From Prevotella sp. (GTDB taxonomy: Bacteria; Bacteroidota; Bacteroidia; Bacteroidales; Bacteroidaceae), in contig JAFZAP010000071.1 of NCBI GenBank assembly GCA_017557185.1, forward strand, positions 1-58,292: DNA of 58,292 nt, in the 5' to 3' direction. Position numbers and translations under genes: made by a program. The notes under the pieces were generated by a model, which ran no database searches, was not told where the DNA came from, and saw only the letters and a list, made by a program, of their open reading frames with translations. Of this stretch, positions 3,782-58,292 are shown piece after piece. Every line of letters begins with the position of its first letter. Position 1 is the stretch's first letter.

Positions 3782-3870
3782 TTTTATCTTTGGTCATTCC
3801 AAAAAGAAAGGTAAAAACATGAATCGCACTAATGCTCTTTTGAGGAAAGGCATAGTTGATTACTCCGTAC

Positions 3871-3987
3871 TTTAACCAACATTAACTCGCGGGAAATTGC
3901 TGTTTCTTTGGTGGTTTGCTCCAAACCCACTATATTTTGACACTATGTTAATCGAAAAGAGGTTGCACCCGTAGCACCGGCGACACC
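3871..3987 (+). repeat. Non-coding element copy A (forward)
   Basis: Contains, in order, TTTAACCAACATTAA (3871-3885), CACTATATT (3928-3936), GACAC (3939-3943), AAGAG, and a 26-base conserved end (3962-3987, starting GTTGCACCCG and ending CGACACC). The same blocks occur in the same order and with similar spacing on the opposite strand at 11833-11946. The two copies face each other across the accessory genes. The surrounding 3782-4050 has no convincing gene. Confidence 0.75.
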
Positions 3988-4050
3988 CGCTATGCGCGTG
4001 GGGTTTCAAAATAATTCTTCCTATCTGCTTGTTATTTCAGTAAATATTTG

Positions 4051-4058
4051 TATCTTTG
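4051..4058 (+). promoter_or_regulatory. Promoter -7 element of the WYL regulator gene
   Basis: TATCTTTG is a full TAnnTTTG match; CTTG at 4028-4031 lies 19 bases upstream as the -33 element. The start codon is 57 bases downstream. Confidence 0.6.
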
Positions 4059-4115
4059 CAAAGCTAATCTAATCAATTTCACTATTGCGGTCACTAACTT
4101 CGCACCAATGCAAAA

Positions 4116-5072
4116 ATGAAAACGTATACTAAGTTCAAGGAATACATTTGGTTGGTGAATACCATCCATAAAGCAGGGAGAATCACCTTTGCTGAGATCA
4201 ACGATCGGTGGTTGGAAACGGAGATGAGTGAAGGCATACCCCTTGCACGCGCTACCTTCAACCGCCACAAGGATGCCATTGAAGACATCTTTGGTCTCTA
4301 TATTGACTGTGACCGTCAGAATGGTTACAAGTATTACATAGGTAACGACTATGTGTTGCGTGAGGACACGGTGCAGAACTGGATGCTTTCGACGCTCAGC
4401 GTGAGTAATGTTATCAGCGAAGGTTTGTCGTTGCAAGATAGGATTTTGTTGGAAACCGCCTCTTCTGGTGGGGAATATCTTTCACTGGTGATAGAGGCGA
4501 TGAAGAAGAGTGTAAGGGTGAAGGTGAGCTATCAGCGATATGGTGCAGACGAACCAAAGTTGTTGGACTTCGAACCTTATTGCATCAAGCTGTTTAACAA
4601 GCGTTGGTACATTCTGGCTCATTTTCATCGTGATGCTACTGCCGACAGGGATGTTGACGACTACTTCGGAATGTTTGCTTTCGACAGAATCAAGAGTTTG
4701 GAGTTGACGGATGTTAAGTTCCAGATCGCCCCCGATTTCGATGCTGCAGAGTATTTTAGTGAGAACTATGGTGTGTTGGTACACGACGGAACTTTGATGG
4801 AACGCATTGTCATACGTGCCTACGGCAAGGAGCGGTATTACTTGCGAGACCTTCCTATCCATAACAGTCAACAAGAAATAGAGGAGGGAGATGATTATTC
4901 TGACTTTGAATTGAAGTTGCGGCCAACATATGACTTCATTTGTCATCTGGTTGGTTTAGGTAGTTCTGTTCAAGTCCTCTCTCCAGATTGGCTTGCTGAT
5001 GAGGTACGCGATATGCATATAGATGCTGCCATGATGTATGGAATATCTCCGTATAAGAAAAAAAGAGAATAA
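4116..5072 (+). CDS. WYL-domain transcriptional regulator
   Basis: 318 residues. The N-terminal part (about 1-85) is a winged helix-turn-helix region (ARATFNRHKDAIEDIFGLYIDCD, then NGYKYYIGN). From about residue 130 a WYL domain follows: VRVKVSYQRYG, then FEPYCIKLFNKRWYILAH and FAFDRIKSLELTD, with a C-terminal WCX-like region (LRPTYDFICHLVGLGSSVQVLSPDWLADEV). WYL proteins bind nucleotides or small ligands and often control phage-defence operons (BrxR/CapW-type), usually as dimers. It opens the accessory island and reads in the same direction as the genes that follow, so it could regulate them, though a gap of 97 bases and a terminator before 6117 mean this is not one simple operon. Confidence 0.88.
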   Translation: MKTYTKFKEYIWLVNTIHKAGRITFAEINDRWLETEMSEGIPLARATFNRHKDAIEDIFGLYIDCDRQNGYKYYIGNDYVLREDTVQNWMLSTLSVSNVISEGLSLQDRILLETASSGGEYLSLVIEAMKKSVRVKVSYQRYGADEPKLLDFEPYCIKLFNKRWYILAHFHRDATADRDVDDYFGMFAFDRIKSLELTDVKFQIAPDFDAAEYFSENYGVLVHDGTLMERIVIRAYGKERYYLRDLPIHNSQQEIEEGDDYSDFELKLRPTYDFICHLVGLGSSVQVLSPDWLADEVRDMHIDAAMMYGISPYKKKRE

Positions 5073-5169
5073 AATGCAAATTCTTTCCAGTTGTTTCAAG
5101 AATTGGGATGACTCTTTGTTTTCATAGCCAAATTATTAACATCATTATAAACATTAAAAATCAATTATT

Positions 5170-6009
5170 ATGAAAGAGAAACCAAATTTTACAATCGTTT
5201 ATGTATTTGGTCCAGCAATTTGCGCGAAAAAATACAAGGAAGACCAACTATTGTCACGTGAAACTGGTGAATGGGTGAAAATCGGAGAAACTGAATTATC
5301 CGCAAACATAGAAGATATAACAATAGACGAATACGTCATGGATAATGCTATGAAACGGATACACCAGGAGCCCCGAACAGGCATTCCTGTAATATGTGAA
5401 GTATACGATGTTTTCATATTCCCATATCAGATAGGAACCGATAATTATGTTCGGAGACGCCTGTGTTCAGAATTGTTCGATATAGAAAATAGCAAAAAGA
5501 ATAATGAGAAATTGGAAGATGGGAAATACCAAATAAAGGCTGGTGTTGAATTCGTTTATGGTGTTACAAGAAGCAAAATCTTGTATGCCGTTCAGTCTGT
5601 CGATCATGAACTATTAGCAAAAGAGGTTGATGATGAAAAAATAAAGACTTTAGTACGATTATGTCGTTTTAATCAAAAGAATCTTGATAATACCTCAAAA
5701 GAAGAAAAGAGCCCCGCATCGGGACAAAAGAAAGCCATTCTCAATTTAGACTTAATCTTGGAAGTTGGTGCAGAGGTAATACTTACAAAAGATGGTTCGA
5801 AAACTGTTGTGGTAGATAATATTGGTGATGTAGTTTCTGCAACATACATTGGCGGTAATAGATTTGAATGTAGAGGAGAAACAGGACGTAGTTCATATTT
5901 TGCAAAGAAATATTTGGAAACGTATGCTGGAAAGAAAATGCAAACGGTTAATGGCAATGAATATTGGACATACAATGGCCAGAAACTTACTTTATTACGG
6001 AAGAATTAA
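5170..6009 (+). CDS. Uncharacterised accessory protein, possibly GIY-YIG-like at the N-terminus
   Basis: 279 residues, soluble. Residues 7-42 (FTIVYVFGPAICAKK ... EWVKIGETEL) resemble the Y-V-F / K-I-G-x-T pattern of GIY-YIG/T5orf172-type domains, followed by an arginine-bearing helix (NAMKRIHQEPRTGIP) and VICEVYDVFIFP. The conserved catalytic residues are not clearly all present, so nuclease activity is a guess. Residues about 190-279 form a separate beta-rich region (EVGAEVILTKDGSKTVVVDN ... TYNGQKLTLLRKN). The start follows a very AT-rich leader. A clear terminator lies just downstream, so the gene ends its own transcript. Confidence 0.6.
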   Translation: MKEKPNFTIVYVFGPAICAKKYKEDQLLSRETGEWVKIGETELSANIEDITIDEYVMDNAMKRIHQEPRTGIPVICEVYDVFIFPYQIGTDNYVRRRLCSELFDIENSKKNNEKLEDGKYQIKAGVEFVYGVTRSKILYAVQSVDHELLAKEVDDEKIKTLVRLCRFNQKNLDNTSKEEKSPASGQKKAILNLDLILEVGAEVILTKDGSKTVVVDNIGDVVSATYIGGNRFECRGETGRSSYFAKKYLETYAGKKMQTVNGNEYWTYNGQKLTLLRKN

Positions 6010-6027
6010 ATAAGAAGTAACTTTTCC

Positions 6028-6069
6028 AGAGGTTGTCCCGCGATTTGAGACAACCTCTATTTATTTTTG
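6028..6069 (+). terminator. Intrinsic terminator after the 5170 gene
   Basis: Perfect 10-bp stem AGAGGTTGTC (6028-6037) / GACAACCTCT (6049-6058) with an 11-base loop, followed by a T-rich tail. The tail also contains TATTTTTG (6062-6069), a possible -7 element for the next gene. Confidence 0.75.
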
Positions 6070-6116
6070 CAACGTGATTTAACAAAAACAGAGTTTAATA
6101 TCTTAATTTGGAAGTT

Positions 6117-6638
6117 ATGAGTAAGTATGATTCTATGACGGATGAGCAGTATTTTGCTGCACAAGACGAGTTTATGAAGAAATATGGTGCGCCTAAGTGC
6201 GAACCAATAGAGGTGTTAGATTTAATCATGCGAAGGGAGTTTGCCGAAGAAATTCTTAGCGGAAGAAAGAAAGTGGAAGTCCGCCAAGGGTCTGAATTCT
6301 ATCTGAACCGCCTTACTGACAAGAAGGTTGACATGTGGATGACTGCCCATCGTGATGACCCAGACATGGACATGGAAGCATTCGATGAGTTCATGTGTGC
6401 TACTCGTCCTGTACTGAAGATTCATTTCCACGACTATAACAAGTCATGGTTCTTGGATGTTGAGTGTACGGAGAATGCCTTGATAGGCGTAACGCGGCAG
6501 AATGTTGAGGACTTGCAGCAACGTTTTGATTGCCATGAGTTTGACGAACTTCTGGAAGAGCTGGAAAAGGGCAATGCTGAGGATTGTCCGTTGTTCTACT
6601 ATTTTGCTTTGGGAGAAGTATTAGGAACGAATTTGTAA
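6117..6638 (+). CDS. ASCH/PUA-like domain protein
   Basis: 173 residues from the ATG at 6117; a TTG nine bases earlier is an unlikely start. The core, [25 protein letters not shown], matches the ASCH pattern (hydrophobic strand, helix, then [11 protein letters not shown]), and the protein ends with [13 protein letters not shown] as expected for the last strand of that fold. ASCH/PUA-like domains bind RNA or modified nucleotides; some are nucleases or modified-base readers. A middle segment ([20 protein letters not shown]) is an unusual acidic insertion. It is followed after 18 bases by the HD-domain gene, suggesting co-transcription. Confidence 0.7.
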
Positions 6639-6656
6639 TTTGTATAATAGGAGAAA

Positions 6657-7799
6657 ATGTCAGATTATTTATATGCTGTAATACCATATAATAAAGGTGT
6701 TATTTTGTATAGTCCTGATGAACTAGAAGAAGGAGTCCTGTATCCCAACATCCCAGAACTGAAAGGCATTGACACAGAATACACAGGGGACATGACTCTT
6801 TTTAAGGGCTATATTCAGATAAATACTTGCCACAGGCTTTCTTCGTTTACCGGGTTGGAGGACGGCTACAGCTCCATTAGGGCTGACATATACAAGATAG
6901 CGAAGGCTGTAGGTGTGAGTGAGGTCTGGTATATTGCGGAGCTATGTACGGACAAGATGTATGCCGAGGGCTTTAGTTTCGAGAAGTGGGCAAACCGTTT
7001 GAAGAACGACAAAGGAATAGTGGTGGAAATGTCGGTAGATGTATTGAAGGACAAGCACATTTACAGTTACTACCACGATGATTTCTCCGATGTCGTTTTG
7101 ACGAAACCGTCTGCAACCACTGGGAAGGATGTTGAATACAGCGATGTTGTATGCGACATAACTCAGGTTATATCACTTCTAGGCGATGGAAATATCAAGA
7201 TAGAGCTGAAAGATTCGCACTGGGATGATATTTCTGTCGTCATGGCACGGTCTCTGAAAGAAGCTTCTGACAAGATAAAGGGGATTCTGGCAGGTAGGCA
7301 TGTAGACTATCCAAATCGTGTAAACAATAAATACGAGGATAAAGATGATTGTATCCAGCGTACCATGATTGCGCAATACATAAAGGCTCTTGACTTGGCT
7401 TCGTGGGAACACCGTGAGCAAAAAGATAAAGCTGGCAAACCCTATTTCGGACATATTGCACGAGTATCTAACGCATGCAAAACGCCACCAGCAAAGATTG
7501 TTGCGCTGCTGCATGACATGATAGAAGACACTGATGTTACTCCAGAACAAATGAAGGAACTGGGATTCTCTGAGTATATTATCAAAGCTGTTTTGTGCCT
7601 AACACGTCAAGATGATGAACCTTACGAAAATTTCATCAAACGGGCAGCAAAGAATCCCATTGCCCGTGAAGTGAAGATAGCGGATTTGGAGGACAACATG
7701 GATGTACGCAGACTGAACGAAGTAAAAGAAGAGGACATCGAACGCACAGAGAAATACCTGAAAGCATGGAAGTATTTAAGGAATTACAATAACAGATAG
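6657..7799 (+). CDS. HD-domain hydrolase (SpoT/alarmone-hydrolase type) with unknown N-terminal domain
   Basis: 380 residues. The C-terminal third is an HD phosphohydrolase of the RelA/SpoT hydrolase kind: EHREQKDKAGKPYFGHIARV, then the HDMIED motif with metal-binding His286-Asp287, and the later KIADLEDNM motif. Proteins of this type hydrolyse ppGpp-like alarmones or related nucleotides. The N-terminal 230 residues (starting MSDYLYAVIPYNKGVILYSP) belong to no family I know; no synthetase signature is visible. It lies in a tight run with the genes at 6117, 7805, 8262 and 8540 and is the larger of two HD hydrolases in the run. Confidence 0.82.
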   Translation: MSDYLYAVIPYNKGVILYSPDELEEGVLYPNIPELKGIDTEYTGDMTLFKGYIQINTCHRLSSFTGLEDGYSSIRADIYKIAKAVGVSEVWYIAELCTDKMYAEGFSFEKWANRLKNDKGIVVEMSVDVLKDKHIYSYYHDDFSDVVLTKPSATTGKDVEYSDVVCDITQVISLLGDGNIKIELKDSHWDDISVVMARSLKEASDKIKGILAGRHVDYPNRVNNKYEDKDDCIQRTMIAQYIKALDLASWEHREQKDKAGKPYFGHIARVSNACKTPPAKIVALLHDMIEDTDVTPEQMKELGFSEYIIKAVLCLTRQDDEPYENFIKRAAKNPIAREVKIADLEDNMDVRRLNEVKEEDIERTEKYLKAWKYLRNYNNR

Positions 7800-50957: not shown

Positions 50958-50967
50958 TTTTTCTTTG

Positions 50968-51009
50968 TGGACCAGCCAGGGCTTGAACCTGGGACCTCCA
51001 GATTATGAG
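50968..51009 (-). pseudogene. tRNA 3' half (anticodon CAT), split at the anticodon loop
   Basis: On the minus strand: CTCATAA (anticodon loop, CAT), TCTGG (anticodon stem 3' side), AGGTC, a perfect T-arm (CCAGG TTCAAGC CCTGG), then CTGGTCC and discriminator A (50968). The expected 5' anticodon stem CCAGA is absent; island sequence (GGGG and T-run) begins right before the loop. So only the 3' half remains, as at an integrase attachment site. Confidence 0.8.
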
Positions 51010-51126
51010 CCCCAAAAAGTGACATTTTATGATAGTTTGAGACATGTAACTATACTGATGTTCAACGAGTTGTATGTTCATGATTTTCACAAAAACTCAC
51101 AAAATATCCCTGACTGAAATAGTTAG

Positions 51127-51375
51127 TTTACGCATTGTTTACGCAAATACCTCCTGACCTATAGTCAAAAGAAAAATCGTTTCTGATTGGCTATCAGTGT
51201 TTTGTGGTTTACGCACCTCCAGACTTTTGATATAAGGTTTGGGGCCTAAATCTGGTTACGCAGCCATCGACAGAATCCCAGACCTGTAGTCTGAATCTTT
51301 TTTGTTGTTTACGCAACCTCTTTTTTTTGTTTACCTAATCACGCACCTCCAGCCCTATAGTCAGAATCTTTTATA
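51127..51375 (+). repeat. Spaced repeats next to the tRNA fragment (probable recombinase arm sites)
   Basis: TTTACGCA or close variants recur at about 51127, 51138, 51208, 51255, 51308 and 51341. CCTCCAG and CTATAGTCAGAATC-like blocks recur beside most of them (for example near 51151-51170, 51217, 51281-51298 and 51346-51370). Unit spacing is irregular. The stretch 51010-51417 has no gene. Confidence 0.6.
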
Positions 51376-51417: not shown

Positions 51418-52695
51418 TTATCCAAGCGTCATATTGGGAATAATGGCATCAATCATGGTTGGTGGGACACCGCAATCTTTCGCTATACCCTCCCAATGCG
51501 AAGCTGCTTCACAAACATCATCGATAACGGATACAGCATCTTTGATGTTGTTCTTGGAAGCGAATTCCAACAGGTCGTTTCTAGTGATATTGTCGAACTT
51601 CTCATTGATTGACATCTGATGTGTTGCGGTCCAGCCACCATTGGGATTGTAGGCATAGCCCATATCGTATGCAGGTGAGAGACGCCACTTCCCATCCTCT
51701 TCCATCAAGAAAGAGATATTCTTGGTGTGATCATCTTGATTGCGAATGACTACGTTGAACACCATTCTGCGGAACATTTGTCTTGCTTCTGAGTACGACA
51801 ACCGTAATGCTCGCATCACATTGAAGGCTTGTTCGTATGAATAGACTCGATGAAGTCGATAGTCAAAATGTGCAATTCCGCAAAGAGTCTGCATGTGTAC
51901 CTTCTTCCCTTCTTTTCGATCGAACCGCTTAGTAAGGAAGTGGGCACGTCCGTTTTCCTCAATGAGTGAACATTCTGACATTTCTATGCCACAGGTTTTG
52001 GCTAACTTGTAGAAAGAGTATTCCAGTCGTCCATAATTCTCTGTCTCTTTGAAACCAGCTTTAGCAGATACCCCATCCAGTTTGATGAGGTAGTAGTCGA
52101 AGCCAGCAGGCGCTTCCACTTGGCCTGAACGAACCTCACCTGTTTCTTTATTATAAGCAATGATGGCTTTTGCTCGTTGGCCACCAGCAGAGGTGCCGAG
52201 GCGCAAAATCTCAGCGATAGCAGCCTTTTTGTCATCTTCCATATTGGTAGTGAATGCTTCTTTCACAGAAAGAGCTTCCTTTGCCACTTCTACCAATTTA
52301 TCTATTTCGAACTTGGTTTCTTGGTTATGCGAAACTTCAATAGCAGGTTCAAATTCCAACGCACCCATGCATCGCTTGCCCAAGAAACAGAGAGATTCAA
52401 TGGGATTACCACTTGTGCGGCCTGTCAGAGACAACCATCTGTCAAACAGGGCACGACCATAAGTGTCGGGCAGAGAATCCGCCAACATACCAGGTAGGCC
52501 CTGAAAGGTGTCCCTTCCCAAATTGGCAAAGGAATAGACCAGTCCTTCCCGAACTGGCATCATCAATGGTGATGGTTCCAAACCACGTCCGATAAAACTT
52601 TGGTCATATTCAAATCTGGCAACTCCATACCTGTCATCCCAATTAAAGATGCCGACGGGTATGCCGAACATACTGACTTTCGCAACATCTACCAT
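51418..52695 (-). CDS. hipA: HipA-like serine/threonine kinase toxin
   Basis: 425 residues, normal HipA length. N-subdomain 1 (MVDVAKVSMFGIPVGIFN ... GMLADSLPDTYGR), the Gly-rich loop GTSAGGQRAK (167-176) in which Ser169 is a candidate autophosphorylation site, catalytic loop RNQDDHTKNISF (Asp321/Asp322, 318-329) and metal-binding PAYDM (Asp344). HipA kinases phosphorylate a translation target, glutamyl-tRNA synthetase in E. coli, and halt growth. Its start overlaps the hipB stop by seven bases (ATGGTAG), typical of translational coupling. All active-site residues seem intact. Confidence 0.95.
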   Translation of the reverse strand: MVDVAKVSMFGIPVGIFNWDDRYGVARFEYDQSFIGRGLEPSPLMMPVREGLVYSFANLGRDTFQGLPGMLADSLPDTYGRALFDRWLSLTGRTSGNPIESLCFLGKRCMGALEFEPAIEVSHNQETKFEIDKLVEVAKEALSVKEAFTTNMEDDKKAAIAEILRLGTSAGGQRAKAIIAYNKETGEVRSGQVEAPAGFDYYLIKLDGVSAKAGFKETENYGRLEYSFYKLAKTCGIEMSECSLIEENGRAHFLTKRFDRKEGKKVHMQTLCGIAHFDYRLHRVYSYEQAFNVMRALRLSYSEARQMFRRMVFNVVIRNQDDHTKNISFLMEEDGKWRLSPAYDMGYAYNPNGGWTATHQMSINEKFDNITRNDLLEFASKNNIKDAVSVIDDVCEAASHWEGIAKDCGVPPTMIDAIIPNMTLG

Positions 52696-53039
52696 TCTGA
52701 TTCCTCCTTATTTATATTATTAAGTCGTCCAACTGCACGTTGGCGTTTGTGCTTGGCTGCATTAGATTGGACGAGTTCGTAGTATTCACTCGGGCTCAGC
52801 TGTTCTTCATCTACCAAAGGCTGAAGCACATCGAGTTTCCCTAATGTCCGCAATACTCTTAGCAACGAATCAAACGAGCCAATCTCTCCCTTCTCAATTT
52901 TTTTCAGTGAAGACAGAGACACTCCAGCAGCATCTGCAAGACTCTGCTGGGTGATATTCTGTTTCAGTCTGACAGACTTCAAGTGGTTACCTATCCTATG
53001 AAGGATTAGGGCATCTGCAAGCATATAAATATCATCCAT
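52689..53039 (-). CDS. hipB: HipB-like XRE antitoxin
   Basis: 116 residues. A helix-turn-helix of the XRE type is clear: LKSVRLKQNITQQSLADAAGVSLSSLKKIEKGEIGSF in essence (about 20-57), followed by LLRVLRTLGKLDVL. It binds its own promoter and neutralises HipA. The C-terminal tail (SNAAKHKRQRAVGRLNNIN) is basic and likely contacts the toxin. First gene of the pair, with its own promoter and two candidate operators upstream. Confidence 0.93.
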   Translation of the reverse strand: MDDIYMLADALILHRIGNHLKSVRLKQNITQQSLADAAGVSLSSLKKIEKGEIGSFDSLLRVLRTLGKLDVLQPLVDEEQLSPSEYYELVQSNAAKHKRQRAVGRLNNINKEESEW

Positions 53040-53561: not shown

Positions 53562-54308
53562 TCATGCTTTTACAATATTGCCGATACTTGTAAGCAGGAA
53601 TGCCCTGCGACAATCCAAGCAAGCATATTGCTCTGTGATGACTGGTTCCGATTCCTGTTGGGTATGTCCAAAGACTTGATAGACATAGGGCAATCGCTCT
53701 CTCATGTACTGGTGGTCCGTTTCGTCTGTCCATACGGGTGAGGGGTATCGTGCATAGCCCCAACGTGAAGCGGAAACATCCATCAGGCCATTGAAAACAA
53801 AATCGTAAAGACTTTCTTCTGTCATCATTTTGTCATTGAGAGATTTGCAGATATTATTCACCTCATTAGGATTGACTTGTGGCATCCTATACCTGAGCCA
53901 ATCGATATCTACACCGGCATGAGTGAAGAGGAAATCCCTCTCTTCTGTCCTTACCGTCATCGCCAGTTTGAACATGGACAAATTCTCACAAAAGATTTGA
54001 TGAATCTCCTCATAGCGTTCTTTGTCCTTGCGACTGCTGTTCATGTCCTTGTCAAAATAATGAATGTCGTGATTACCCAATAGTAGTGTCACCCTGTCCA
54101 TATTGGCTTTCTTGAAATCAAGGATTTCCTTGAAATTCGCAAGGGCCTCACTAGGAAGAATTTCCTCGTAATATGTATATGGGTCCAGATAGTCTCCAAG
54201 GAAAATCACAGGCAAATCAGGATACTTCCTTGTGGCAGACATCCAGAACAAACGACCATGGATGTCAGGTATAATCAACAATATCGGTTTGTTATCTTTC
54301 TGTTTCAT
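53562..54308 (-). CDS. Calcineurin-like metallophosphoesterase (Ser/Thr-phosphatase type)
   Basis: 248 residues, cytoplasmic. All family metal motifs are present: PDIHGR (residues 14-19), LGDYLDP, LLGNHDIHYFD, FTHAGVD and VFGHTQ. The pattern resembles PrpE/ApaH-type phosphoesterases, which act on phosphoproteins, dinucleoside polyphosphates or RNA caps; the substrate cannot be told. Last gene of the leftward operon, 12 bases after the previous one. Confidence 0.9.
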   Translation of the reverse strand: MKQKDNKPILLIIPDIHGRLFWMSATRKYPDLPVIFLGDYLDPYTYYEEILPSEALANFKEILDFKKANMDRVTLLLGNHDIHYFDKDMNSSRKDKERYEEIHQIFCENLSMFKLAMTVRTEERDFLFTHAGVDIDWLRYRMPQVNPNEVNNICKSLNDKMMTEESLYDFVFNGLMDVSASRWGYARYPSPVWTDETDHQYMRERLPYVYQVFGHTQQESEPVITEQYACLDCRRAFLLTSIGNIVKA

Positions 54309-54320
54309 GTTCTTAACTTT

Positions 54321-55088
54321 TTATAGTTCAATGCATTTTCCTGCATCAAAGCCATTCAAAAGATGCTCTTCATGGAAGACATATCCCATTTGGTTGCTGA
54401 CTATTCTAGTCTTGCCAATGGTAGCATCTATATTGGTATGAGAATGACCATAAATCCAGACATCAATACGGCTGTTGGCGATGAAGTCGCCCAGCTCCGT
54501 AGCAAAGGCACTGTTGATGAGCGAATCCAGATGTTGCGGTGCCACCACCTGCCGTGTAGGCAAGTGATGGGTAACCACAACAATTTTCTCAGCCGTACTC
54601 TCTGCCACGCTCTTCCTGACGAAATCCAAGCAGAACTGGTGCAGTTGGTTGTACTCATTCACCTGAATGAGTTTCCCTTTGTATTTGGTCTGACGAAAAT
54701 CATTCAGCCCTTTCCAAACGAAATACTCATCCTGTGGAGGTATGCTCGACCATAAAGTACTCAGGACGAAATCGGTGTTGTCAATACGAACTACTTGATT
54801 TTGATAGATGCCTACATTGTCTTTGAGCATCCATTTCCATTGCAAGCCTCGTTCCATCACGTCACAAAACTGGTAATACTCGTGGTTGCCCGGAACAATT
54901 AGCACCTGTCGATAGTTTGCCGATGCCCACTTCCAGAACTTACTGAGTGGAGCCACCGTATTGTTCAGATAAAACGTATCACCTGCCAGTATAAGCACAT
55001 CCCCTGTAACAGGGAACTCATGATGTTTGATGTACCTGCTGTTCTCTGCGAACTCCATATGCAGGTCACTCATGTATTGTATTTTCAT
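54321..55088 (-). CDS. Calcineurin-like metallophosphoesterase
   Basis: 255 residues. Motifs: MSDLHMEF (6-13), LAGDTFY, VPGNHEYYQ, VTHHLPT and YGHSHTNID. This is the broad YfcE/UPF0046-like type often found in phages and mobile elements; some members are cyclic-nucleotide phosphodiesterases or 2',3'-cyclic RNA phosphodiesterases. Different from the two other phosphoesterases of the operon, so they are not recent duplicates. Gaps of 20 and 12 bases on either side support one transcript. Confidence 0.9.
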   Translation of the reverse strand: MKIQYMSDLHMEFAENSRYIKHHEFPVTGDVLILAGDTFYLNNTVAPLSKFWKWASANYRQVLIVPGNHEYYQFCDVMERGLQWKWMLKDNVGIYQNQVVRIDNTDFVLSTLWSSIPPQDEYFVWKGLNDFRQTKYKGKLIQVNEYNQLHQFCLDFVRKSVAESTAEKIVVVTHHLPTRQVVAPQHLDSLINSAFATELGDFIANSRIDVWIYGHSHTNIDATIGKTRIVSNQMGYVFHEEHLLNGFDAGKCIEL

Positions 55089-55108
55089 TGTTCTTTACTA
55101 TTTATTTG

Positions 55109-55690
55109 TTAGCATACTATATAGAAGATGCGTACATCCGACTCATTGATGTGGGTGTACCCGAAAGACGTTAGTGCTTGGACTGTGTCTCGGAAACGGA
55201 AGAGAAGTCCATAGTCCCACATAAAGTCTTCATACATCTGCTCAATTGGAGTAACATCCTCATAACATTCATCCTGTTCTTCTGTCGCACCATGATCTTT
55301 TGGACTATTATTCAATTTTGCCTCGATACGATTCAATTGCTCCTTGATGGAATAGATTCCCGCATGGGCAATCCCCGAGAGCAGTTTCTTTTCCAGTGAG
55401 TCACAATGATGCACCAAGTCATCAAACATAAACACGCCGAATCCCATGTTATAGTCATCGTCATCTATTAGTTTCTGCACTTCCTCACTCAGAATATCTT
55501 TGTTGCGACTTCTATGAGAATCTGCCTCTTCCAAGAAATCTCGGAAATGATAGTATCGGCAGTTGAATACTTCTGAATTAAAAATCTCATATTCGTGGTC
55601 AGGCTTCTCCCATTGAGGTGAAGTGACCTTCATCAGGTTCCATTGGTTTTGCTTCCTGATTTCTATATGCAATGATATATCTACTCCCAT
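55109..55690 (-). CDS. Hypothetical protein with MGVDI N-terminus
   Basis: 193 residues. Starts MGVDISLHIEIRKQNQW, similar to the start of the MGCDIH-type family (compare 7805-8212), but the rest (YEIFNSEVFNCRYYHFRDFLEE ... MYEDFMWDYGLLFRFRDTV) lacks the family's later blocks. Possibly a distant relative. It is embedded between phosphoesterase genes at 41 and 20 base gaps, so it should act with them; its function is unknown. Similar genes occur in phages as far as I recall. Confidence 0.65.
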   Translation of the reverse strand: MGVDISLHIEIRKQNQWNLMKVTSPQWEKPDHEYEIFNSEVFNCRYYHFRDFLEEADSHRSRNKDILSEEVQKLIDDDDYNMGFGVFMFDDLVHHCDSLEKKLLSGIAHAGIYSIKEQLNRIEAKLNNSPKDHGATEEQDECYEDVTPIEQMYEDFMWDYGLLFRFRDTVQALTSFGYTHINESDVRIFYIVC

Positions 55691-55731
55691 AATTCTAGAT
55701 TTTTATCTTATTGTTCTTTTACTTGTTTATA

Positions 55732-56361
55732 TTACCTCATCTCTCCACGATAGTTATTCTGAGCATACTCCATGAAGGTATTACAATTGTATTGCTTAAT
55801 CTTCTCCGTGGCAGCGTTGTAGATGTCCTCCAGCGTCAGGAAACGCAGATTGGCGAGAGAACCGTCTATTCCAACATCAAAGCGCAAATCCATCGAATGG
55901 GTATTGTACTCATCCAACTTACCATGACTATGACCATGAAGCATCACGGACCCTTGAGGTTTTTGATTCCATGTAACCATTGGATAGTGGCACATTACCA
56001 CATAGAAGTCCTCATTCAGAAACGGTGCAACAGTTGACTTGAATCGCATCTCCTTAATCTGATAGACCTCTCTGAAATAGTTCTTGTAAGCTCGGATAGA
56101 TCCATCATGATTTCCCTCAATCAGGAACTTCTGTCCTGGCAGTTTCTCCAGCAGATGTCGGGCATTCTCGCTTTTCAGAAATGTCAAATCCCCCAAGATA
56201 TAAACAGTATCCCGCTTACCTACGGTGCTTTTCCAGAGGTCACGCAGCCATTCGTCGTGTGCCTTGATATCCACCGTATCTGAAAACGGTCGCTTTGGCG
56301 AATGCTTCAATATGTTTGGATGGCCAAAATGCAAGTCGGCCGTAAAATAAATCTGGTTCAT
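55732..56361 (-). CDS. Calcineurin-like metallophosphoesterase
   Basis: 209 residues. Motifs: TADLHFGH (7-14), LGDLTF, IEGNHDGS, CHYPMVTWN and HGHSHGK. This compact form is common in phages and genomic islands and is often found beside tRNA- or RNA-processing genes. All metal ligands appear intact. It lies 52 bases after the RNA ligase gene and is the first of three phosphoesterases in the operon. Confidence 0.9.
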   Translation of the reverse strand: MNQIYFTADLHFGHPNILKHSPKRPFSDTVDIKAHDEWLRDLWKSTVGKRDTVYILGDLTFLKSENARHLLEKLPGQKFLIEGNHDGSIRAYKNYFREVYQIKEMRFKSTVAPFLNEDFYVVMCHYPMVTWNQKPQGSVMLHGHSHGKLDEYNTHSMDLRFDVGIDGSLANLRFLTLEDIYNAATEKIKQYNCNTFMEYAQNNYRGEMR

Positions 56362-56413
56362 TATTCATTCTTTTTTAAGCCTCCCCCTGCTATTTCACAG
56401 GGAGAGACTATTA

Positions 56414-57454
56414 TTAACTATTTATGATATAGGCTTGGCTCATATAAACCTTCTTGACCAACTCGGTGGAGATCTTGTTAAGCTCTTTATTGAGCAATTT
56501 CTGCTCGCTCTTTTCGAGACAGCCATACTCACCACCATGTTCCTTCAGAAAGTCTTCGAGCACGTCTTTGGAGAACAGACCCATAATCTTTCCGAAGTCT
56601 TTAGGTACATGTACCTCACCGATATGACTTACTACATTTGCCAAGCGCTGTTCAGTAACGTATGCCTCTATCTCTGGAACGAGTGCTTTCAATGCCTCGC
56701 TGTAGGGAACTGGTTCGGCAAAAAGCTTGTTGCGCTTTTTCACACTCTTCTTCTCGGCGAAGCGTTCATTCTTGCTTTTTATAAGCACCCTGCCTCCATT
56801 TTTCAGGTACAAGGGAACGACTGGTCTAATCACGATACCCTCGCAGATGTTGTCCTCGATGGCAGGGAAACCAAGCCATTCGGCAATCTTACTCTGGAAA
56901 GCGTTAGGGTATTTGAGGCATTCACCGAGAGTACCCTTGAACAGAGTCCTGGCATAGAAGAATCCGTGCTTGTCGAAAAGTTCGTTAATTTCATCTACAG
57001 GTAGATACCTACCGCCTTCCTCATTGATGACATAGATGTCAAAACCATAGAACTCATGCTCAGGAGTATAGCATACACCCTTTTGGATGAGAGACAACTT
57101 GCGGTTAGGTTGTACATCCTTGTGAGGATAAGTTCCACCGAACATCTCACCGAAAACATTAACGCTTCTTACATCCTCATATCTGCTGAGGACATCCTTG
57201 GTAAGGGCCACGACTTTACTCTTGTACCGTTCAAGCAGTTCAGGATAGTCGTAGAACATCTCCTCCGCTTCCAGTATGGAGGTACGCTTGGCAAACCTCA
57301 CGTTCTCTCCGTCACAGAGGAAACTGGTGTTGGCACCATGTACCTTTTCCTGTACCACATATTCCAAATCGGTTGGCATTTCTGCCACAATGCGCTCCAT
57401 GAACTCTCTGTTGAAGGAATTCTCGATGGAGCTGTACTTTTTGAATTCTAACAT
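56414..57454 (-). CDS. T4 Rnl2-type RNA ligase
   Basis: 346 residues, the same length class as phage T4 RNA ligase 2 and collinear with it to the end. The start (FKKYSSIENSFN) mirrors T4 Rnl2. Motif I is EKVHGAN with nucleotidyl-accepting Lys37; AKRTS follows, then motif III VFGEMFGG, motif IIIa FYGFDIYV, motif IV EGIVIRP and motif V KSKNERFAEKK. The C-terminal domain (VVSHIGEVHVPKDFGKIMGLFSKDVLEDF) is also conserved. Rnl2 enzymes seal 3'-OH/5'-phosphate RNA nicks in duplexes using ATP. First gene of a five-gene operon with three phosphoesterases. A 5-bp hairpin (57477-57490) lies close upstream. Confidence 0.95.
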   Translation of the reverse strand: MLEFKKYSSIENSFNREFMERIVAEMPTDLEYVVQEKVHGANTSFLCDGENVRFAKRTSILEAEEMFYDYPELLERYKSKVVALTKDVLSRYEDVRSVNVFGEMFGGTYPHKDVQPNRKLSLIQKGVCYTPEHEFYGFDIYVINEEGGRYLPVDEINELFDKHGFFYARTLFKGTLGECLKYPNAFQSKIAEWLGFPAIEDNICEGIVIRPVVPLYLKNGGRVLIKSKNERFAEKKSVKKRNKLFAEPVPYSEALKALVPEIEAYVTEQRLANVVSHIGEVHVPKDFGKIMGLFSKDVLEDFLKEHGGEYGCLEKSEQKLLNKELNKISTELVKKVYMSQAYIINS

Positions 57455-57600
57455 TTCTTTGTTCCTTCTTGTTTGTGCGCATCGCTGCGCGGTTAATAAT
57501 TGATTGACTACATATTGTGCCGTAGGCCAGGCCGATGAGGAGAAGTCTTACCGTTGGTAAGTCGGTAGTGTTCATGGTTGTGATAGGCACAAACGAAAAA

Positions 57601-57631
57601 TGGTTGGAAAGCATTTCTGACTTTCCAACCA
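57601..57631 (-). terminator. Intrinsic terminator inside the leader of the RNA-ligase operon
   Basis: Perfect 11-bp stem TGGTTGGAAAG (57601-57611) / CTTTCCAACCA (57621-57631), 9-base loop. On the minus strand TTTTTC follows at once. It lies between the promoter (57860) and the ligase start (57454). Confidence 0.85.
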
Positions 57632-57853
57632 CTTCGTTAATCTCGTGTTTGCACGTATAATCTACGTCAGGAGTAATCTACTCCCTCCTCGTGCAATAAG
57701 GAAAGTCTTCCTATGTGAACGCGGTGCAACAATGCTTGACGTTTGCATATAGGAATCGCATTCAAGGCACCATGTGCTCTGAATGTTCAGTCCGCCTAAT
57801 ATGTTAAATTTCTGTCTCTGCATTGCTGCTATTTTTATGGATTTTCGTGAAAC
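57632..57853 (-). ncRNA. Candidate short leader or small RNA ahead of the RNA-ligase operon
   Basis: Bounded by a full-consensus promoter and an intrinsic terminator, about 220-260 bases. The only open frame of note (66 codons, from 57862) would start inside the promoter, so a protein is unlikely. TAATCTAC occurs twice (57658-57665 and 57674-57681). Confidence 0.4.
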
Positions 57854-57891: not shown

Positions 57892-58051
57892 TCTTTTTGA
57901 GACAATTTTTCAAGGCCATTTTGCTTATACACTAGTGTATAAAAAAGATTGCCAACGGCGGCTAAGTTGTTGATTTTTGCTATTCTTATCAGCAAATTGC
58001 ATGCAAATTTATTGTTTATCTTGTTTTTCGATGTTAATATCCTATAAAATC

Positions 58052-58089: not shown

Positions 58090-58292
58090 TTAGCATTTGA
58101 GCGGGCCATGATCCCTAAGTGATGCTCTTCTTGTTTTTAACAGGAAAGTGAGTCTGCTCACCAGTTCGTGGCTGGTAAAAACCATTCCGATGAATCATCG
58201 TGCGGAGGGAGTATTAGTCGGAAGATACTCTATCCAACTCCACATAAGAGGCTCTTCAGGGGTTGAGACCGATTAGCATAAGCCCGGTTACC
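58090..58292 (+). ncRNA. Candidate structured RNA, possibly start of a group II intron or other reverse-transcriptase RNA (runs off the edge)
   Basis: Directly after the promoter, with no sizeable open frame. Hairpins visible: ACCAG/CTGGT near 58160-58176 and GAGTAT/ATACTC near 58209-58230. The text CCGATGAATCATCG and later TATCCAACTCC resemble domain I of bacterial group II introns as I remember them; the start GAGCGGGCC would then be the 5' end. Retron or regulatory leader are alternatives. Confidence 0.35.

Follow-up and report, generated by a model that had tools for sequence, protein, structure and literature searches.

A probable mobile RNA-repair operon in Prevotella, with an Rnl2-type ligase, three phosphoesterases and a predicted leader attenuator

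What would a bacterium do with an RNA ligase of the phage T4 Rnl2 type at the head of an operon that also holds three different phosphoesterases? The question is raised by a stretch of 58,292 nucleotides from Prevotella sp. (assembly GCA_017557185.1, contig JAFZAP010000071.1; the whole stretch is called the window here), in which we examined about 47–58 kb closely and covered the remainder as a list of open reading frames (ORFs). A sequence-only reading had proposed that the ligase (RNL), three metallophosphoesterases (MPE1, MPE2 and MPE3) and an orphan protein form a healing-and-sealing module that perhaps repairs cut tRNAs. Our analysis moderately favors the view that these genes are a mobile RNA-repair operon, carried in the window's branch by an element that integrates at tRNA-Met(CAT), with cut tRNA as its likeliest substrate and a leader as its switch.

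Read 5′ to 3′, the operon runs Rnl2, MPE1, orphan, MPE2, MPE3, with successive gaps of 52, 41, 20 and 12 bp, which confirms both the coordinates and the families first assigned: a complete ligase, three non-identical phosphoesterases and an orphan, 12–52 bases apart. RNL scores 223.7 bits against TIGR02307 (cut-off 197.15), exceeds the cut-offs for PF09414 and PF18043 (82.5 against 27 for the latter) and can be aligned over its entire length with its full-length homologue T4 Rnl2 (2hvq, E 1.6e-40). EKVHG, (F)GE, EGxVIR and KxK, which we take to be the catalytic motifs, are invariant or almost invariant in the ligase alignment (A5). The full-length match, the score over a curated cut-off, the catalytic motifs and the C-terminal domain assign RNL to the Rnl2 RNA ligase family.

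All three phosphoesterases exceed the PF00149 cut-off of 21.5 bits (MPE1 29.5, MPE2 59.2, MPE3 39.0), and their best PHROG families differ. The metal motifs of calcineurin-like enzymes are DxH, GD, GNH(D/E), H and GH(x)H; they are visible in the alignment columns of the phosphoesterases (A2–A4), where a shortened copy in locus L013 is without the first two (A4) and the last motif of MPE3 is GHT, not GHxH. By fold, MPE2 is closest to PptH, followed by MPPED2, aq_1956, Mre11 and Rv0805 (VIA-align), and its residues 1–107 match positions 10–104 of the 223-position PDC-S10 profile at 37 bits, a partial match to a PADLOC family that is only a candidate. MPE1 scores 15.7 bits against PdeM (NCBIfam TIGR04123, cut-off 150) and is not placed in that family. 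The PF00149 matches listed genome-wide number six, four on other contigs and two here, MPE1 not among them. For the orphan, Pfam, NCBIfam, PHROGs and PADLOC gave nothing above chance, and no known fold was found. Two sets of features were absent from the sequence-only reading: a leader with a predicted attenuator upstream, and hipBA genes with a tRNA-Met attachment (att) site downstream.

The gene order recurs in other genomes, as had been expected. We collected 56 ligase loci by scanning GTDB genome contigs with peptide patterns taken from the window's ligase, a sample that favors close relatives; by their titles they are chiefly from the Prevotella group and other Bacteroidales, many of them from the rumen. 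Subtracting two loci with no ligase ORF by profile and four with less than 1.2 kb of downstream room leaves 50 informative loci. In 28 of them the next 1.2 kb after the ligase holds a same-strand MPE gene, and 20 have at least two MPE matches within 6 kb. Together with the PF00149 count above, this puts the arrangement beyond chance, and gene order links the ligase to a putative end-healing phosphoesterase. L045 has MPE2 and MPE3 downstream of the ligase and a piece of MPE1 upstream; a large primase-like protein (3817–6741, TOTE-like by eye) lies ahead of both that piece and the ligase. The ligase itself is rare, being found in five of 149 relatives (own genome included) and 10 of 249 genomes of the genus. 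On contig G079:C90, two stop-bearing ligase fragments (44487 and 58601–58942; L008 and L007) flank an intact copy, with zeta-like kinases nearby; these fragments are decaying extra insertions.

Genes that adjoin the ligase elsewhere also point to RNA repair. RlaP (PF10127, 60.6 bits, cut-off 23) is convergent with RNL at 89 bp in L021, and a HAD_SAK_2 protein (65.9 bits, cut-off 27.5) lies on the same strand upstream of RNL in L023, each in a single locus among the 56. RlaP, SAK-HAD and Rnl2 are known RNA-repair families, according to the available part of one source (PMC7824862). A search of IMG/VR with a single ligase sequence returned no relative; with a ligase alignment it returned nine viral Rnl2 loci (L189–L197). 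In two of the nine, L190 and L197, the Rnl2 gene is directly adjoined by an ORF whose N-terminus belongs to the MPE1 family. The C-terminal half of this fused ORF in L190 matches T4 RNA ligase 1 (2c5u, E 3.4e-9), and the L197 ORF resembles it, judged by eye only; a P-loop kinase-like gene lies 0.8 kb upstream in L197 (best PDB match 9drz, E 9.7e-18; PNKP, E 0.005). MPE2 and the orphan went unmatched in all nine viral loci. Three genes abut in each of Vibrio phage PS17B-2 and Aeromonas phage phiA047: one of MPE1 type, whose annotation reads phosphoesterase or hypothetical protein, and two annotated as RNA ligase 1 and ATPase. The PS17B-2 phosphoesterase matches the MPE1 alignment at 99.9%; the PDB search returned no match for the ligase and ATPase beside it. 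By tblastn, 1,635 of 50,697 phage records hold MPE1-type relatives. These viral fusions and adjacencies are our strongest indication that MPE1-family proteins act together with RNA ligases. As for RtcB, none was found in the window's own genome (89% complete) and it is present in three of 10 genomes searched, from which we conclude nothing.

The sequence-only reading had suggested that the phosphoesterases could heal RNA ends. The viral links lend support to this for MPE1; for MPE2 and MPE3 it stays a supposition, and MPE2 also occurs ligase-free. The proposed joint healing-and-sealing role likewise gains from the RlaP and SAK-HAD neighbors and from the viral MPE1–ligase links, and loses from the rarity of the three-MPE set.

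Across loci the operon appears as a cassette of ligase, MPE1, a middle slot and MPE2, followed optionally by MPE3, C4, C9 and C3. MPE1 comes in two alleles that are 26–30% alike, and the middle slot is taken by C8 or by a member of the orphan family, whose C7, C15 and C39 groups show a weak relationship by profile. Identity to the window varies by gene: 95% for the ligase, 28% for MPE1 and 76% for MPE2 in L009; 94% for MPE2, 86% for MPE3 and 29% for MPE1 in L013; and 89% for MPE1, 77% for the ligase and 61% for MPE2 in L024. Since these identities are so unequal and nucleotide matches to the window begin and end close to gene borders, cassette alleles seem to have been exchanged one gene at a time. 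The variable slots of L022, L027, L028, L093, L094 and L098 hold small proteins with the N-termini MGQRTN, MSLDLYI, MSTNYY and MSGGAFDY. A sequence labelled bacteriophage (L065, MT837973.1) carries MPE1-MPE2-C8 with no ligase detected; its label is doubtful because its far end resembles a bacterial metabolic gene (by eye).

How might such an operon be switched on? Nucleotide matches to the window start at 57943–57952 in eight loci, about 490 bp ahead of the ligase. Within this leader region, a GTTGGAAAG/CTTTCCAAC-type hairpin followed by a T-rich tail was seen in 26 of 46 sequences scanned (window included) and by alignment also in L020, L037, L040 and L058. A leader ORF was found by a profile built from 16 peptides of these loci in 24 of the 26 hairpin sequences; the contig of L015 starts inside the ORF, and L010 is without its start. 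Among 7,197 small ORFs, every one that the profile picked up at E 0.01 lay at such an operon; the new ones precede the ligase-less C8-MPE2 cassette of L097 and, as a weak match, the G079 ligase. Within the ORF, one strand repeats the 3′ arm of the terminator and hence can pair with its 5′ arm. We computed helix statistics on 18 representative sequences. The terminator helix is paired in 96.8% of cells (slid helices 30–53%), with double changes at seven of 14 pairs, a count reached in one of 500 shuffles; the antiterminator is paired in 85.5% (slid 33–60%). All three strands are altered together in L040 and L041, and in a shifted register in L020 (by eye). The leader frame is free of stops in all 18 sequences compared, which were chosen because the ORF is present; the two remaining forward frames hold 42 and 59. 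We therefore predict an attenuator in which the leader ORF is followed by mutually exclusive antiterminator and terminator helices.

A link to tRNA comes from the relatives. C3, a helix-turn-helix protein, is present in 15 ligase loci, and tRNA genes follow it directly in 14 of them (the exception is L015), at 48–50 bp in 12 loci and 164–166 bp in two. Arrays of at least four tRNAs occur in 12 of these 14; L026 and L049 have a single tRNA, the latter at a contig end. The common set is Cys, His, Met, Trp, Tyr, Phe, Ser(TGA) and Ser(GCT), with Asn added in some, and Infernal confirmed the tRNAs in all six array loci submitted. Among informative loci without C3, any tRNA was found within the stretch taken in three of 35 (one, two and one genes). 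The comparison of array and host tRNAs covers one genome, that of L057 (G276), in which the eight array tRNAs, set against the chromosomal gene with the matching anticodon, show 69–77% identity (seven comparable) and no Asn gene was found besides the array's. They look foreign and redundant, with unmutated anticodon loops.

C3 itself has relatives beyond the cassette. Its residues 1–132 match the N-terminal part of longer proteins, about 345 aa in length; the one examined, in L188, carries WYL and WCX domains and is one gene away from a gene of the RtcB family. Among the 30 C3-homologue loci returned, a tRNA lies within 1.5 kb of 12 of 15 short frames (<190 aa) and one of 15 long ones; L151–L153 of this set are MPE cassettes, L153 being L057 again. 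A second kind of array, with Pro, Arg, Thr, Glu, His, Gln, Phe and, in some, Ser tRNAs, lies beside stand-alone C3 in L157, L158, L162 and L168 (also L181 and L183–L185), with no RNL in the stretch. An unusual tRNA with a CAT anticodon, in the arrays of L150 (the L057 array) and L009 (11868–11955), measures 88 nt; its variable arm is long, and its acceptor ends look initiator-like by eye. In L024 (7379–7492) and L057 (7379–7494), a SAM-I/IV riboswitch occupies the other strand immediately ahead of the cassette.

The flank downstream of the operon suggests mobility. The att sequence is present in 13 of 82 scanned sequences (the window and 12 others, some records overlapping), with a complete tRNA-Met in L012 and L094. 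Paired att copies lie 10.2 kb apart around the ligase cassette of L099, and an integrase (PF13102) lies beside att in L009, where DUF6371 and a relative of the Mob_Pre relaxase precede the ligase (the relaxase match comes from the L053 member). The window itself, on a contig that stops at 58292, showed a single att and no integrase. The hipBA stretch of the window (53135–51429) is 88% identical in L092, and relatives of HipA or HipB are encoded in the L009, L011, L012, L013, L015, L017 and L023 stretches. In L009 (12630–13942), two proteins divide HipA between them, one with the N-terminal domain and the other the C-terminal kinase, an arrangement that presumably resembles HipBST.

Table 1. 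Coordinates of the operon, its leader and the neighboring features in the window
Feature	Position	Strand	Details
RNL, T4 Rnl2-type RNA ligase	56414..57454	-	346 aa; TIGR02307, PF09414, PF18043, 2hvq
MPE1, calcineurin-like phosphoesterase	55732..56361	-	209 aa; PF00149, PHROG 547
Orphan (C7), MG...IE protein of divergent family C7/C15/C39	55109..55690	-	193 aa
MPE2, calcineurin-like phosphoesterase	54321..55088	-	255 aa; PF00149, PHROG 1649
MPE3, ApaH/NinI-like phosphoesterase	53562..54308	-	248 aa; PF00149, PHROG 246
Leader ORF	57662..57823	-	53 aa; profile and conserved place
Predicted antiterminator strand in leader ORF, complements terminator 5′ arm	57700..57707	-	P 0.06 in window
Terminator-like hairpin and T-rich tail	57597..57634	-	5′ arm 57634-57621, 3′ arm 57611-57598
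Small conserved hairpin, GCGA loop, just before ligase start	57476..57492	-	alignment
HipB-like antitoxin, neighbor, perhaps of the element	52689..53039	-	116 aa
HipA-like toxin kinase, neighbor, perhaps of the element	51418..52695	-	425 aa
Arm-like repeat beside att, TGCGTAAAC twice	51126..51145	-	20 bp
Predicted att site, 3′ half of tRNA-Met(CAT) gene, element boundary	50967..51009	-	43 bp

Collectively, the sequences support the ligase family, the operon, its recurrence, an apparent exchange of alleles, an att-like site, a covarying terminator and the tRNA linkage of relatives, and we propose the following model. By its homology, the Rnl2-type ligase would seal breaks with 3′-OH and 5′-phosphate ends. 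MPE1, judging from its viral fusions and adjacencies, may clean 2′,3′-cyclic or 3′-phosphate ends for the ligase, and MPE2, MPE3 and the orphan would be variable accessories, perhaps for other end types or for signaling nucleotides. As the operon has no kinase, the breaks that it could finish alone would already bear a 5′-phosphate, and 5′-OH breaks would need a kinase from outside. Ends of this kind would be expected from metal-dependent nucleases, and suitable ones exist: for the Toprim nuclease AriB of PARIS, a 3′-OH is shown and a 5′-phosphate expected in the available part of the source (PMC12409363). A ribosome at the end of the leader ORF would cover the antiterminator strand and let the terminator form; with the ribosome stalled or absent, the antiterminator would form and the operon be transcribed. 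The trigger would be tRNA loss, with ribosomes failing to reach the leader end, if the leader is translated as we suppose. Thus the leader, an RNA switch predicted from sequence, probably turns the operon on upon tRNA loss. Sister cassettes would bring an array of tRNAs, divergent yet redundant in the one genome compared, so that repair and replacement would travel together. More tentatively, and as a possibility that we hold to be the less probable outcome, all this may amount to a mobile, self-regulated translation-rescue module: an attenuator responding to tRNA loss, a healing-and-sealing operon, divergent replacement tRNAs in sister cassettes, MPE1 as an end-healing partner with which Rnl2 needs no kinase, and swapped orphan and MPE alleles that track different nucleases of hosts. 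The att site holds for one branch and the tRNA comparison for one genome, and we have lowered our confidence slightly on both counts.

A number of observations weigh against the RNA-repair model or parts of it. All three MPE kinds occur in only two of the 50 informative loci (L013 and L014) besides the window, and 18 of the 50 have no cassette gene within 6 kb downstream. As had been claimed for the module, none of the five proteins matched a kinase in Pfam, NCBIfam, PHROGs or PADLOC; the operon thus has no 5′-polynucleotide kinase of the Pnkp type, and the seven AAA_33 matches of the genome are all on other contigs. Among the sequences scanned, the att sequence is confined to the window's branch and stretches related to it; the L024/L030/L057 group gave none. 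For the antiterminator, double changes at four of 10 pairs were reached in 40 of 500 shuffles, pairing fails in L018 (0.72) and L019 (0.62), and its duplex energy against shuffled segments is at or below 0.02 in nine of 18 sequences, the window being borderline at 0.06; pair-type counts are ordinary for both helices (terminator 120 of 500, antiterminator 248 of 500). The leader ORFs have no codon-position bias, their differences falling evenly over the three positions, so the ORF draws its support from the open frame and constant place. We dropped the idea that the leader is tuned to the array isotypes (W, C, Y, H, S and M are striking by eye) because there was no enrichment: one of 18 comparisons of leader codons with array isotypes fell below 0.05, uncorrected. 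The suggestion that cut tRNA is the target gains from the tRNA arrays in 14 of 15 C3 loci of relatives; the window has no tRNA gene and no C3, and C3 is also unmatched in its genome. In G276 the 7-nt anticodon loop of the array tRNA equals the chromosomal one in seven of seven cases. These tRNAs are thus not made nuclease-proof by loop mutation, and for the L057 array we rejected the idea, drawn from the available part of PMC10264068, that array tRNAs are loop-mutated decoys.

MPE2 and the orphan family raise a further difficulty. MPE2 occurs in 42 of the 249 genus genomes (33 above 80 bits, the others fragments or generic relatives), against 10 for RNL, and the orphan family in nine. In L092, L093, L094, L097 and L098, MPE2 is accompanied by C8 or orphan-family genes, and the stretch taken has no ligase. 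Of the genomes concerned, G044, G050, G247 and G168 gave no ligase match; that of L094, G264, has a ligase some 23 kb off, its reading divided between two frames. MPE2 and the orphan family are therefore not dedicated partners of the ligase. In L105, L107 and L110 (L106 partial), a distant MPE2 relative is the third gene after two conserved uncharacterized proteins, a possible three-gene system whose second protein is AbiEii-type nucleotidyltransferase-like by eye, with no library match; in L109 and L111, HsdM-like proteins adjoin distant MPE2 relatives (by eye). Both settings differ from that of the ligase cassette. Such occurrences, the PptH-like fold of MPE2 and the independent swapping of genes (L009 and L024 above) would fit a different account, in which the MPEs degrade signaling nucleotides or other non-RNA immune substrates, and ligase and MPEs are independent anti-defense cargo on one element. 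We think this rather unlikely, given the viral MPE1-family proteins fused to or abutting RNA ligases and the recurring ligase-MPE order. The operon might instead be a host defense unit, with MPE2 as a PDC-S10-like anti-phage effector and the ligase shielding host tRNAs. The match of MPE2 to PDC-S10 over 107 residues, the AbiL-, AriA- and PDC-S01-like flank proteins (among the matches listed), the HsdM- and Vsr-like proteins beside ligase-less relatives (by eye) and the adjoining hipBA speak for this; the PDC-S10 match is partial, the family a candidate only, and defense neighbors were counted without a background set. The scan took 92 of 164 flank proteins against PADLOC, with 323 families at 1e-8, 25 of them listed, and we claim no defense enrichment because no background set was run. 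On balance we regard such a unit as quite improbable.

A DNA-end repair or nuclease module, pairing a PdeM- or Mre11-like MPE with a nucleic-acid ligase, has in its favor the weak PdeM match of MPE1 and the overlap of the MPE2 fold with Mre11; with a ligase over the Rnl2 RNA ligase equivalog cut-off and tRNA arrays adjacent in relatives, it is very improbable. A further proposal, compatible with the others, is that arrays lie near the cassette merely because mobile elements favor tRNA loci. Elements of the window's branch do integrate at tRNA-Met, by our prediction, and stand-alone C3 with other arrays exists without RNL. Against it, at least four tRNAs, starting 48–166 bp from C3, occur in 12 of 15 C3 loci, the array tRNAs of the one genome compared are 69–77% identical to host genes with matching anticodon, and att lies kilobases from the array in L009, L011, L017 and L096; we judge this proposal unlikely. 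We retain a mobile RNA-repair operon as the favored explanation.

Phage T4, with Pnkp-Rnl1 and Rnl2, provides a precedent for the repair of cut tRNA. The operon differs from T4 in lying on a bacterial island, in a ligase about 36% identical to the best 30 phage rows, and in having MPE where T4 has a HAD-type phosphatase. Pnkp/Hen1 systems (Pnkp1-Rnl-Hen1), in the part of the source available (PMC4411300), likewise join a phosphatase to an ATP-dependent RNA ligase that mends ribotoxin-cut RNA; our operon differs in its separate calcineurin-like phosphoesterases, in giving no kinase match (Hen1 was not looked for), and in its mobility, predicted attenuator and, in relatives, tRNA arrays. As far as the accessible text of PMC7790460 goes, rsr-yrlBA-rtcBA is also an RNA repair operon induced by tRNA damage; its ligase is RtcB, and its regulator is a CARF protein to which tRNA halves bind, not a leader attenuator. 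Jumbo-phage kits, from what is given in the available portion of PMC7824862, combine Rnl2, RlaP, SAK-HAD and tRNA genes as an anti-immune set; they are phage-borne and clean ends with 2H, cRec, HAD and KptA, not with these MPEs. Interspaced tRNA array systems similarly link arrays to nucleic-acid enzymes; the sections available (PMC10910872) name RNase R, RNase H and an exonuclease, with neither Rnl2 nor MPE among them. We found no description of the operon, its leader or its tRNA-array partners in the literature searched; Burroughs and Aravind 2016 was not covered by that search, and a prior description is possible. The sets of PS17B-2, phiA047, L190 and L197 share the coupling of an MPE1-family phosphoesterase to an RNA ligase and differ in having an Rnl1-type ligase (with Rnl2 beside it in L190 and L197) and, in PS17B-2 and phiA047, an ATPase.

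Immune systems are recognized to use tRNA cutting as a weapon, and the best-known repair of such cuts is that by phages, Rtc and Pnkp-Hen1. If our favored explanation is true, mobile elements of the Prevotella group would also carry tRNA repair and tRNA replacement, and the operon offers a switch open to direct test, along with a role for MPE1-type phosphoesterases that can be tested too.

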